Positions 17,519-21,406 of a stretch of 24,462 bases of DNA are shown here, in pieces. The stretch covers positions 1-24,462 of the IMG/VR virus record IMGVR_UViG_3300011129_000069. One strand, written 5' to 3'. How positions within the stretch are numbered: position 1 is the stretch's first letter; the number at the start of each line of letters is the position of its first letter. Position numbers and translations under genes: made by a program. The DNA is from a virus. The notes under the pieces were generated by a model that had not been told where the DNA came from, did not search any database, and saw only the letters and a list, made by a program, of their open reading frames with translations.

Positions 17519-18007
17519 ATGTTTGGTCTAATCACCATGCTGTTATCAACGCTTGGAGCCACAGGGATGGGTTCCATGCTGAAGATACTAGGTGGTGCAG
17601 TACAGAGCCGTAACGAGGCTAAAGAAGCAGAAGCAAAGAGAGAGCTAATACGTGATCTGCAAATGAAACAAGCAGACATAGAGTTCCAGAAGGCAATATT
17701 TGGAGATGCCAGCGATGACCCGGAAGCGACTATATTTACTCGGACTACTCGTAGGATTATTGCTCTTATCGGGATGCTCAATTTTGCAACCATCTCAATC
17801 CTCTGTACAATATATCCCACAGTCGAACTCATTACATTTATCCCCCCTGAGCAAACCCAAGAAATTAGTATCTTGTGGGGACTCTATAAGATGCCAGTCG
17901 ATCAGGGAATTACAACTTCAATCACAACAGGGCATATCTCCCTTGTCTCGATTACCACTTTGGGCGCTATAATAGGGTTCTACTTCACACCAGCAGGAAA
18001 ACGATAA
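17519..18007 (+). CDS. Three-transmembrane holin
   Basis: This is a 162-residue membrane protein. Hydrophobic segments lie at residues 3-27, 79-99 and 138-157. Between the first two is a charged helical stretch (NEAKEAEAKRELIRDLQMKQ). The end FYFTPAGKR is basic. Three segments, a charged linker and a basic tail fit the 3-TM holins of the gene-transfer-agent release type (PF11351-like). Immediate coupling to the lysozyme gene (TAATG) supports a lysis role. A lipoprotein-like frame is embedded in it at 17715-17972. An alternative reading as an i-spanin-like protein is possible because of the helix after the first segment, but three hydrophobic segments argue against it. Confidence 0.7.
   Translation: MFGLITMLLSTLGATGMGSMLKILGGAVQSRNEAKEAEAKRELIRDLQMKQADIEFQKAIFGDASDDPEATIFTRTTRRIIALIGMLNFATISILCTIYPTVELITFIPPEQTQEISILWGLYKMPVDQGITTSITTGHISLVSITTLGAIIGFYFTPAGKR
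17715..17972 (+). CDS. Candidate embedded lipoprotein (o-spanin-like), +1 frame of the holin gene
   Basis: An 85-codon frame lies wholly inside the holin gene, shifted +1. It reads MTRKRLYLLG, then a hydrophobic stretch to residue 18, then LSGC with Cys21 and Ser22. This is a textbook lipobox with a basic n-region and an outer-membrane-compatible +2 residue. The mature part (65 residues) is moderately Pro/Ser/Gln-rich (QPSQSS, PLSKPKK). GGAG at 17702-17705 is nine bases before this ATG. Embedded Rz1-type outer spanins are known in lambda, so the layout is plausible. It may still be chance, because the overlapping holin frame is also hydrophobic there. No clear i-spanin partner is found on the same strand. 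Confidence 0.4.
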   Translation: MTRKRLYLLGLLVGLLLLSGCSILQPSQSSVQYIPQSNSLHLSPLSKPKKLVSCGDSIRCQSIRELQLQSQQGISPLSRLPLWAL

Positions 18008-18618
18008 TGGACATTGATTTAGTCAATCAAACTGTAGCGATGATGAACCCTCAAGAGCGGGTTGTCGCTGAGCAGATAGCACAGCCTTTGATTCGTGAAG
18101 CGTCCAAGTTAAGTGATGAAGAGTTTATACAGCAAATCAAGCCAAGGCTTAGAGCGCATGAAGGCGTTGCTTTAAATGAAAATGGCAATCACATTCTTTA
18201 TAAAGATAGCCTAGGCAAGATGACTGGAGGTATTGGTCACTTAATAACACCTAAAGATAAGAAGTACGCTGGTAAGCCAGAAGGAACAATAATAGATCCA
18301 GCAGATGTAGATAGGTGGGAAGTAGAAGATACTAAGACAGCACTATCAGACGCTAAAAATTACCTTGGCGATAGCTGGAAAGACTCTAGCTTAGCGGTAA
18401 AAGAAGTTGCGACAAATATGGCTTTTAATCTTGGCAGGACAAAGTTATCTCAATTTAAAGAGCTGAGAAAAGCATTGGTGTCTGGAGATATGCAGAAAGC
18501 ATCAGATGAGATACTTTTTGACACTAAGACTGGAAATAGAAGCAAGTGGGCAAGCCAAGTTAAACGTAGAGCAGATGACCTAGCTGCAATGCTTAATCCG
18601 CCTTCCTCGGCAAGATAG
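18007..18618 (+). CDS. Endolysin, GH24 lysozyme (T4-type)
   Basis: This is a 203-residue muramidase that should cleave the peptidoglycan glycan strand at lysis. The catalytic arrangement is visible: Glu52 in RAHEG, Asp67 in YKDSLG and Thr73 in KMTGGIGH. The Asp-to-Thr spacing is as in T4 lysozyme, while the Glu-Asp loop is longer. The C-terminal part NMAFNLGRTKLSQFKELRKA and later GNRSKWASQVKRRADDL corresponds to the second lobe. There is no signal peptide, so export depends on the holin. About 50 helical residues precede the catalytic domain. The 3' end overlaps a convergent gene by 26 bases. Confidence 0.9.
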   Translation: MDIDLVNQTVAMMNPQERVVAEQIAQPLIREASKLSDEEFIQQIKPRLRAHEGVALNENGNHILYKDSLGKMTGGIGHLITPKDKKYAGKPEGTIIDPADVDRWEVEDTKTALSDAKNYLGDSWKDSSLAVKEVATNMAFNLGRTKLSQFKELRKALVSGDMQKASDEILFDTKTGNRSKWASQVKRRADDLAAMLNPPSSAR

Positions 18619-19231: not shown

Positions 19232-19729
19232 TTATCCTAATGGCGATGATGCTGCATCAAGTCCTTTCCACAGATCATCTATCTCAGTTTTAAATTTACC
19301 TACAGCGTCCTCAAAGCTTTTAATAGCATCTGCCATAGCCTTGTACTCGTTTCTAATCTCTATCCAGTCTTTCTCCATGCTGTTTAACTTAGCAGTAGAT
19401 GCCGCAGCATTGTCCAAGACTTCCTGTTGCCTTTCTTTTATATTATCCAACAATGTAGATAGTTCAGCCAACTTACCCTGCAAGTGACCTAGGTCGTTGT
19501 CTGTAATCTTTGTTTCTATCGCAATGATTTGTTTTTGCATAGGTCCTATATCTGGGATACTGCTAGACAGACTTGCAACACTTGCCTCTAAGTTATCTAT
19601 TCGACTAACAAACTCACTAGCGGCCCATATACCACCGCCGATGGTTGTAGAAAAAGACATCAATATCGCTATGTAAACACCCTTAAACTTGACTCCCCCA
19701 ACGTCAAGCTCTATATCCTCAACACCCAT
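19232..19729 (-). CDS. Membrane-anchored coiled-coil protein
   Basis: This gene encodes 165 residues. One hydrophobic segment, about residues 17-40 (GVYIAILMSFSTTIGGGIWA), is followed by a long heptad-like coiled coil to about residue 155 (IDNLEASVASLSSS, then IETKITDNDLGHLQGKLAEL, then SMEKDWIEIRNEYKAM). The topology (single N-terminal anchor plus coiled-coil ectodomain) is what an inner-membrane spanin would show, but the gene is on the strand opposite to the holin and lysozyme. Similar coil-plus-TM proteins of unknown function occur in marine phages as I recall. The start overlaps the preceding stop in TAATG. Confidence 0.7.
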   Translation of the reverse strand: MGVEDIELDVGGVKFKGVYIAILMSFSTTIGGGIWAASEFVSRIDNLEASVASLSSSIPDIGPMQKQIIAIETKITDNDLGHLQGKLAELSTLLDNIKERQQEVLDNAAASTAKLNSMEKDWIEIRNEYKAMADAIKSFEDAVGKFKTEIDDLWKGLDAASSPLG

Positions 19730-20799
19730 TAAAGACCGCCTAGATTACCGTTCTGATTGTTGTAATTTGTAGTTGGATTTTCATTCGTAACTTCTATAAC
19801 ATCTTGAACCAACTGTACTGGGTCATAGAGCTTTGCGTTTATATTATAACCAGATCCCATAGATGCCACATTCTCTCCTGAACCGTAGCTGTAAGCGCTG
19901 TACATCTCATTAATAGTAACGGGAGGGGTATCACCGTAAAAGCCGTCATAGACCTCTGCAGTAGCTTGTGTCCACCCTATATTGGCATCGTTGTTAAAGA
20001 ATACACCTTGGAGCACAGTATTGGTTGCATTATCCCAAGTAACTGTTAATTGGTCAGTCCAGGCATCGTAGGCCACTGTAGAGTTAGTTATGTTCGATAG
20101 CGTAGCAATGCCATCGTAATTGATCATAGCGAGTGTTGCTGAGTCCTGACTCGCCCAGAGGCTTGCTGTAGCCGCCTGCGCTTTATCTTCAATAGTATCC
20201 AGTGACTGATTAAAGGTTTGGACTGTCGATTGGTCAATCTGTACATCATTTGCGCGAATGTAATTCTGCAACTGTATACGTTCATCGTCAGTTTGAGCAT
20301 TAACAGCTTCAGTGTAAATTGCTTCCGCTTTAGATATTTCTGTAGCCGAGTCTGAGAACATATCAATTGCTGCTTGCATCTGGTCCATATTTTCTTCATA
20401 AGAGTCCACCAGTAAGTGTTCGGCTGAATAGTAATTAGCGTTGGCTGTATCGAGTATAGATTGGTTGTAGTAAGCGACTTCTACTAAGTCTATCTTGTGG
20501 CTATCTGTACGCCCTGCTACCGGCACAACAGTACCTGCAACGCCTGTAGGGTCAGTTGGTACACCCATTGACATCTCTATCACACTGGCTTGAGCATCGC
20601 TGACTTGAGTATTGATGTAATTAGCAGTGTTGACCAGCTCTTGTATTTCTACAAAATCACCGATAGGACGTAAAGGGTTGATGTTGGGATCAATGAGGGA
20701 CCCAAAGCTAACGGCTTGTGGATAGTAAACCCCAGTGTCACCACTCAGTTGTGCGGAAACTAGAAGAGATAGACTTGCCGCTATTTTCTTTTTGTTCAT
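19729..20799 (-). CDS. Secreted protein of unknown function with signal-peptide-like N-terminus
   Basis: From the internal ATG at 20799 the protein has 356 residues and begins MNKKKIAASLSLLVSAQLSG, a basic n-region plus hydrophobic core typical of a Sec signal. An upstream in-frame ATG at 20814 adds five residues (MENLE). Both have ribosome sites: AGGA before 20814 and GGAG nine bases before 20799. I prefer the latter because of the signal peptide. The body is Asn/Asp/Thr/Ala-rich and helical in the middle (residues 120-220), then beta-like with Tyr/Gly/Asn. The C-terminus is Asn-rich (TTNYNNQNGNLGG). I do not recognise the family. The 5' end overlaps the next secreted gene by 62 to 77 bases depending on the start. 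Confidence 0.65.
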   Translation of the reverse strand: MNKKKIAASLSLLVSAQLSGDTGVYYPQAVSFGSLIDPNINPLRPIGDFVEIQELVNTANYINTQVSDAQASVIEMSMGVPTDPTGVAGTVVPVAGRTDSHKIDLVEVAYYNQSILDTANANYYSAEHLLVDSYEENMDQMQAAIDMFSDSATEISKAEAIYTEAVNAQTDDERIQLQNYIRANDVQIDQSTVQTFNQSLDTIEDKAQAATASLWASQDSATLAMINYDGIATLSNITNSTVAYDAWTDQLTVTWDNATNTVLQGVFFNNDANIGWTQATAEVYDGFYGDTPPVTINEMYSAYSYGSGENVASMGSGYNINAKLYDPVQLVQDVIEVTNENPTTNYNNQNGNLGGL

Positions 20800-21406
20800 C
20801 TCCAGATTCTCCATTAATTCCTAAAGCTATATCAAAGTATTCTTTGTTTTTTTCATACCCGACAACAAATAACTTAGGCTTCCTTTTCATCGTTAAATAA
20901 GCATTCTTACCAGCGACTACCTTACCATTTACTATCAGAGGACAAGGGGTTCCGCTTTGGAACATACTAAGCCAGATTTTATCCGACTGGCACATCCTGG
21001 TTATAGATGCAATCTTCATGTTAATTGAGAAGAGAACTGTAGCATCCTTACGCCGGTTACACTCTTCATCCTGTATGTACTTACCAGTGCTGATGCCTAT
21101 CTGTAAAGTAGATACGCCGCCGCTGGTAGACTTTAGGCAACTATCGTTACCGCCTGACATCAAACTTGGAGCTACTGCCGAAGCAACAGGTATCTCACTG
21201 GCAGAACCAGCACCGTTGTACTGATTCGTGTTAGTGGTAGTCTCATTGTTTGAATCGACAGTCGCACCCTGCTGATTGGTGTTTAAATCACCACTCTGGG
21301 TTGAGGTATTGCCGCTATCCGTCTGGGCGTAAAGATCTACAGGAAGTAAATACACTACCAAGAGGACAGTACATAAAATACTCAGTCTTGAGCTATATTC
21401 TTTCAT
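20738..21406 (-). CDS. Secreted Cys-containing protein, marine-phage type
   Basis: This gene encodes 222 residues. Residues 1-27 (MKEYSSRLSILCTVLLVVYL and PVDLYAQ) form a signal peptide with a plausible cleavage at YAQ. Residues 28-65 are a low-complexity Ser/Thr/Asn/Gln stretch (NNETTTNTNQYNGAG). The folded part has Cys in NDSCLKS, in QDEECNRRKDA, in TRMCQSDKIW and in SGTPCPL, consistent with disulfides in the periplasm. I recall the same order (Asn/Thr-rich linker, DxC, C-x-n-A, GTPCP) in uncharacterised proteins of marine phages. The ribosome site is weak. It is followed by the second secreted gene with overlap, so they are probably co-expressed. Confidence 0.7.
   Translation of the reverse strand: MKEYSSRLSILCTVLLVVYLLPVDLYAQTDSGNTSTQSGDLNTNQQGATVDSNNETTTNTNQYNGAGSASEIPVASAVAPSLMSGGNDSCLKSTSGGVSTLQIGISTGKYIQDEECNRRKDATVLFSINMKIASITRMCQSDKIWLSMFQSGTPCPLIVNGKVVAGKNAYLTMKRKPKLFVVGYEKNKEYFDIALGINGESGDEQKENSGKSISSSFRTTEW

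Follow-up and report, generated by a model that had tools for sequence, protein, structure and literature searches.

The holin-like gene of a marine phage analysed here harbors a second open reading frame, shifted by +1, which, going by the comparison of homologues, is almost certainly a translated and selected protein-coding gene. In the clade of this phage its predicted product has the textbook layout of a lipoprotein precursor and is very probably a lipoprotein. We put at about two in three the probability that it acts as an outer-membrane spanin (o-spanin) which pairs with a separately encoded inner-membrane spanin (i-spanin).

The overprinted frame and its host gene

The window, i.e., the whole stretch of DNA analysed, is a virus record of 24,462 bases with genes for terminase, portal, and major head protein. 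The portal is ~30% identical to portals of podovirus-type phages. The host gene (17519..18007, + strand) codes for a holin-like membrane protein of 162 aa: a hydrophobic N-terminus and a charged helix are followed by two further TM helices. It is positioned between an internal-virion-protein-like gene immediately 5' and the gene of a lysozyme-type endolysin immediately 3' (18007..18618, +; phrog_7 endolysin, E=2e-14), the start of which overlaps the holin stop (TAATG).

The initial annotation designated the host protein a 3-TM holin. It looks like a holin and adjoins a lysozyme, yet it has no curated family match above threshold. PF11351 (GTA_holin_3TM) is matched by 4 of 28 members of the family with a best E of 0.021, below the curated cut-off. 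A profile comparison (hhalign) of the host family with a 12-member GTA_holin_3TM alignment gave a probability of 52% and E=1.4e-4 for that single pair. We term the gene holin-like; its identity as a holin is weakly supported by these matches. GTA_holin_3TM holins, e.g., gp41 of Methylophilales phage Venkman, share the succession of helix, charged stretch, TM, and TM, and gp41 adjoins an endolysin gene just as the host gene adjoins the lysozyme. The WRP signature of these holins is TRR in the host protein. Unlike the host gene, all 12 GTA_holin_3TM genes examined from other phages are devoid of a +1 lipoprotein frame. Structure predictions for the holin-like protein and the lipoprotein are of low confidence (pLDDT 52.5 and 58.4, respectively).

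The overprinted gene (17715..17972, +) specifies 85 aa followed by TAA and translates as MTRKRLYLLGLLVGLLLLSGCSILQPSQSS...LPLWAL*. The lipoprotein pattern which had been noted initially is complete. A predicted signal peptide of 20 residues (17715..17774, +) with the basic n-region MTRKR and a Leu-rich core ends before Cys21, and the lipobox L-S-G-C (17766..17777, +) has its Cys codon at 17775-17777. The mature part of 65 aa (17775..17969, +) is rich in Ser, Pro, Gln, and Lys and has Ser at +2. The precursor pattern MTRKR...LLLLSGC|S reads in full MTRKRLYLLGLLVGLLLLSGC|SILQPSQSS..., where the bar is placed after the lipobox Cys, the first residue of the mature protein. The putative Shine-Dalgarno-like GGAG, likewise noted initially, is located at 17702..17705 (+), nine nt ahead of the ATG; an additional in-frame ATG is present at 17706. 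A six-frame scan which asked for a basic n-region, a hydrophobic core, a lipobox, and ≥20 mature residues returned this frame as the sole match across the 24.5-kb window. The identical scan of two other marine phages, 186 kb, gave about one spurious-looking match.

Selection on the +1 frame

A first search identified 80 contigs which carry the holin-like protein with 65-100% identity. Further scans extended this to ~100 related contigs with 63-100% holin identity, spanning from a few kb to 185 kb, and a scan keyed to the C-terminal half of the holin-like protein recovered the same family. The non-redundant set comprises 64 genes of <97% nucleotide identity and 27 lineages of <85%. One contig from a bacterial genome (L182) is among the relatives, and none were found among cultured phages and plasmids. 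Many contigs carry small membrane-protein genes related to those of the T4-like phages HTVC008M and Melnitz.

Each third position of a holin codon falls in the middle of a +1 codon; thus, constraint on the +1 frame is visible as a loss of synonymous variation. Holin codons 62-134 are free of +1 stops in all 64 genes. When codons 62-150 are examined 16 stops are observed vs. 355 expected from codon usage (z=-23, a score which overstates precision because related sequences are counted separately). Two figures guard against this counting of kindred sequences: the 27 lineages have 9 stops vs. 161 expected, and the +2 control frame is flat with 239 vs. 235, although fluctuating at the level of sub-regions. 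Resampled with synonymous codons, each of the 27 lineages retains an open +1 frame in 0-0.3% of trials.

The ratio of observed to expected synonymous difference is 0.92 in codons 2-61, 0.50 in codons 73-88, which cover the hydrophobic core and the lipobox, 0.79 in codons 89-150, the mature part, and 1.01 in codons 151-162 just past the +1 stop. Excluding stop-creating codons from the expectation changes these values to 0.97, 0.58, 0.83, and 1.07. Synonymous constraint starts and stops with the +1 frame. The +2 frame and the remaining part of the holin-like gene served as controls because the flanking genes had too few aligned sequences for windowed synonymous rates. The initial annotation had suggested a comparison of homologues; across the 64 genes +1 stops in codons 62-134, loss of the lipobox, and undiminished synonymous change were all absent.

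The lipobox is LSGC in 37 genes, LWGC in 11, LLGC in 8, LSAC in 7, and FLGC in one; the Trp at -2 of the LWGC form departs from the usual lipobox. Residue -1 is Gly or Ala in all 64. Position +2 is S, V, L, A, or Q and Asp in none of the 64, as in signals of outer-membrane lipoproteins. The conserved Cys is weak and non-independent evidence because, with Leu or Cys after the invariant holin Met86, the +1 frame necessarily reads TGY. What is informative is Leu at -3, Gly/Ala at -1, and Ser/Thr at +2/+3, together with the absence of stops. The codon of Gly85 is GGG (8% background) in 23 of the 27 lineages and GGC in 4, giving Gly at -1. GGA and GGT, which would place Glu or Val there, occur in none of them despite a background of 71%. 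All 27 lineages have CTT or TTT as codon 83 (Leu at -3), CTC encodes Leu87 in 22 of 23 (Ser at +2), and AAC encodes Asn88 in 25 of 27 (Thr at +3). The hydrophobicity of the core exceeds that obtained by synonymous resampling (mean z 2.5, 27 lineages).

Clade-dependent start sites

A few homologues have no ATG, GTG, or TTG near the lipobox, which at first seemed evidence against a gene. They are explained by a start elsewhere, either an ATG or GTG at codon 32-33 or an ATG upstream of the holin gene. Accordingly, three groups are distinguished. In group W (13 genes including the window) +1 stops in codons 2-45 are at or above chance (55 vs. 44 expected). By about codon 55, if not earlier, the frame is open, and the start is ~20 codons before the Cys, near codon 65. 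Group I (27 genes) has 87 stops vs. 91 expected in codons 2-31 and 2 vs. 30 in codons 32-61. Nearly all of its members have an ATG at codon 32 or 33; L035 and L036 have GTG, whereas L078 and L136 resemble group W. Group O (24 genes; L052-L079, L157, L182, and others) has no stops in codons 2-61 vs. 118 expected, a count which is circular because the group was defined by the absence of stops. Independent evidence is provided by a +1-frame ATG which in 24 of 24 genes precedes the holin ATG, by 44 nt in L072 and by 5-14 nt in the others, and by a per-gene P(open) of 0-0.0017 in 9 lineages. The inspected loci of groups W and I showed no such upstream ATG.

With the start shifting from clade to clade, overlap of the two genes is almost complete in 24 of 64 cases, and in group O each has ~150-165 codons. 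Several group O loci display a TATAAATA-like late-promoter sequence just upstream. The dual-start holin S105/S107 of lambda also has two nearby starts at one lysis gene; in group O, however, the starts are in different frames and the proteins are unrelated. When the O label is mapped onto a tree of the holin, up to 5 changes are required, and well-supported branches force at least 2 of them; many branches are weak, and the tree gives the changes no direction. Judged from these alignments, the overprinted gene is kept while its 5' end moves. The earlier notion of a nested frame was right in that the frame is real, but it missed the clade-dependent start and the near-total coverage of the holin-like gene in one group.

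In ~48 of the 64 sequences the likely start leaves ~50-85 residues ahead of the hydrophobic segment (~85 in 24 genes, ~50 in most of group I). This is unusual for a lipoprotein signal, and in these long-form clades the signal segment is internal to the +1 product. Such leaders, and the LWGC of 11 genes, would fit an uncleaved bitopic membrane protein in the clades with an upstream start, with a lipoprotein in the clade of the window only. We consider this rather doubtful, as codon choice holds Gly/Ala at -1, Leu at -3, and Thr at +3 in all groups. The proposal concerns the long forms and is compatible with a lipoprotein and an o-spanin in the window.

A spanin function and its alternatives

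Embedded o-spanins are defined as located inside an i-spanin gene in the +1 frame (PMC3556154, PMC6139136). As in lambda Rz/Rz1, the frame of a short, putative outer-membrane lipoprotein is entirely contained, at +1, in a second lysis-type gene. In lambda the host is a type II coiled-coil i-spanin, whereas in the window it is a multi-TM holin-like protein; further, the candidate partner of the window lipoprotein is encoded elsewhere and the start varies by clade. The overlapped spanins LysB/LysC of P2 and gp105/gp106 of phiCbK share the +1 overlap. The P2-type o-spanin runs past the i-spanin gene, whereas the window lipoprotein is inside the holin-like gene or, in relatives, nearly coincident with it. 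The open-access literature (subscription papers were outside the scope) gave no account of a holin gene with a lipoprotein frame nested in it, and no similar nested frame was found in HTVC008M. At about record position 81005 HTVC008M (L282) does have a short lipoprotein ORF, MRLLIILSILFLTAC, with a mature part of 28 residues, which could be an unrecognised o-spanin.

The initial annotation envisaged an o-spanin nested in a holin. What stands is a selected lipoprotein frame in a holin-like gene beside a lysozyme. The case for an o-spanin draws on topology, position, and i-spanin-like neighbors, and on sequence matches which are weak. Pfam LysC (Rz1-like) is matched by 2 of 46 lipoprotein members (E=0.0037), PHROG Rz-like spanins are matched with E~0.05-0.2 (PHROG 456, E=0.05), and none of the members passes the curated threshold of a known o-spanin family. 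Because o-spanin families are very diverse (PMC6139136), a match to a curated family is not strictly defining.

Candidates for the partner are suggested by gene layout; coiled-coil proteins match many families weakly. In the window a putative i-spanin of 165 aa with one N-terminal TM and a long coiled coil is encoded at 19232..19729 (-), i.e., on the strand opposite to the holin-like gene and ~1.2 kb away. L012 has a weak relative of it immediately 5' of the holin and on the holin strand, and L014 has a similarly placed ORF. The leftward operon of the window (19232-21406, -) compared with L012 suggests a rearrangement of the module which includes the candidate i-spanin. In L040 a 73-aa ORF with TM and coiled coil directly downstream overlaps the holin stop and matches the Rz-like spanin phrog_739 (E=6e-5). 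Many relatives have TM/coiled-coil proteins of 89-98 aa (phrog_18771) 3' of the holin, sometimes immediately. An i-spanin candidate at one fixed place in all clades was not found among the homologue loci.

The surroundings of these loci show further recurrent genes. From L028 to L081 the phrog_18771 proteins, of unknown function, recur as a pair ~0-3 kb downstream of the holin. In HTVC008M and Melnitz relatives of this pair adjoin curli-type csgF/csgG genes, and HTVC008M has a cyclase near its curli genes. By eye, L057, L074, and L157 have CHASE2-type cyclase-like and FecR-like genes on the opposite strand downstream of the holin; L028 and L043 have a serine hydroxymethyltransferase-like gene upstream of it.

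We envision that a late mRNA is translated from both starts. The zero frame would give the holin-like inner-membrane protein, the +1 frame the small lipoprotein. The latter would enter the Sec pathway, become lipidated, and be cleaved at Cys21 as predicted from the lipobox, and Ser at +2 would direct it to the outer membrane. Following the opening of the inner membrane and the wall by holin and endolysin, the lipoprotein, as the outer-membrane half of a spanin, would pair with a separate TM and coiled-coil protein. In other clades the same gene would start further upstream, up to before the holin start.

An envelope lipoprotein other than a spanin is improbable, yet it is the most serious competitor for the function. 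It might affect holin timing in an antiholin-like manner or block superinfection from the outer membrane like Cor/Llp. Nesting in a holin-like gene couples its dose to the holin, one member weakly matches the Cor superinfection-exclusion family (E=0.15), and the spanin matches are likewise weak. The adjoining lysozyme in the window and the TM/coiled-coil neighbors in many relatives argue against it, as does a short mature part rich in Ser and Pro like that of Rz1-like proteins. It is even less probable that the host gene itself codes for an i-spanin with extra TM helices, i.e., an unusual version of the classical embedded Rz/Rz1 layout. Classical embedded o-spanins are indeed read from the i-spanin gene at +1 (PMC6139136, PMC3556154), the inner-membrane spanins of phiCbK have extra TMs (PMC3556154), and the host protein contains a charged helical stretch. 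However, this helix precedes TM2 with an RR pair and is predicted to be cytoplasmic by the positive-inside rule, the basic C-terminus after the last TM is predicted to be inside instead of in the periplasm, and the weak family match is to GTA_holin_3TM.

The probability that the frame is open by chance, or is an RNA or DNA element instead of a protein, is negligible. The Cys is forced by Met86, and some other holin genes have fairly long chance open +1 frames; yet stop avoidance is frame-specific, ends where the frame ends, and tracks three start sites with the +2 frame at expectation, and the 12 GTA_holin_3TM genes of other phages lack such a frame. Chance was rejected on the deficit of stops (16 vs. 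355), the synonymous constraint, and a P(open) of 0-0.003 in 27 lineages. An RNA element as the sole cause was rejected because of the frame specificity of stop avoidance.

Somewhat less firmly than the o-spanin assignment itself, we favor the wider proposal that marine phages have a dual-frame lysis locus, made up of a holin-like gene and an overprinted gene for an outer-membrane lipoprotein whose start has moved repeatedly, and that this is a new spanin architecture. If this is true, gene callers biased against overlaps would miss it. In a survey of phage genomes about 13%, including many marine cyanophages, were without a recognisable spanin, and 196 of the o-spanins it covered had previously gone unannotated (PMC6139136). 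Were the lipoprotein an o-spanin, some of the marine phages which seem to have no spanin would conceal one in a frame of a different lysis gene that has escaped annotation, and a single stretch of DNA would tie together the doses of the inner- and outer-membrane disruptors. The three start classes constitute a natural series for studying how an overprinted gene grows or shrinks.
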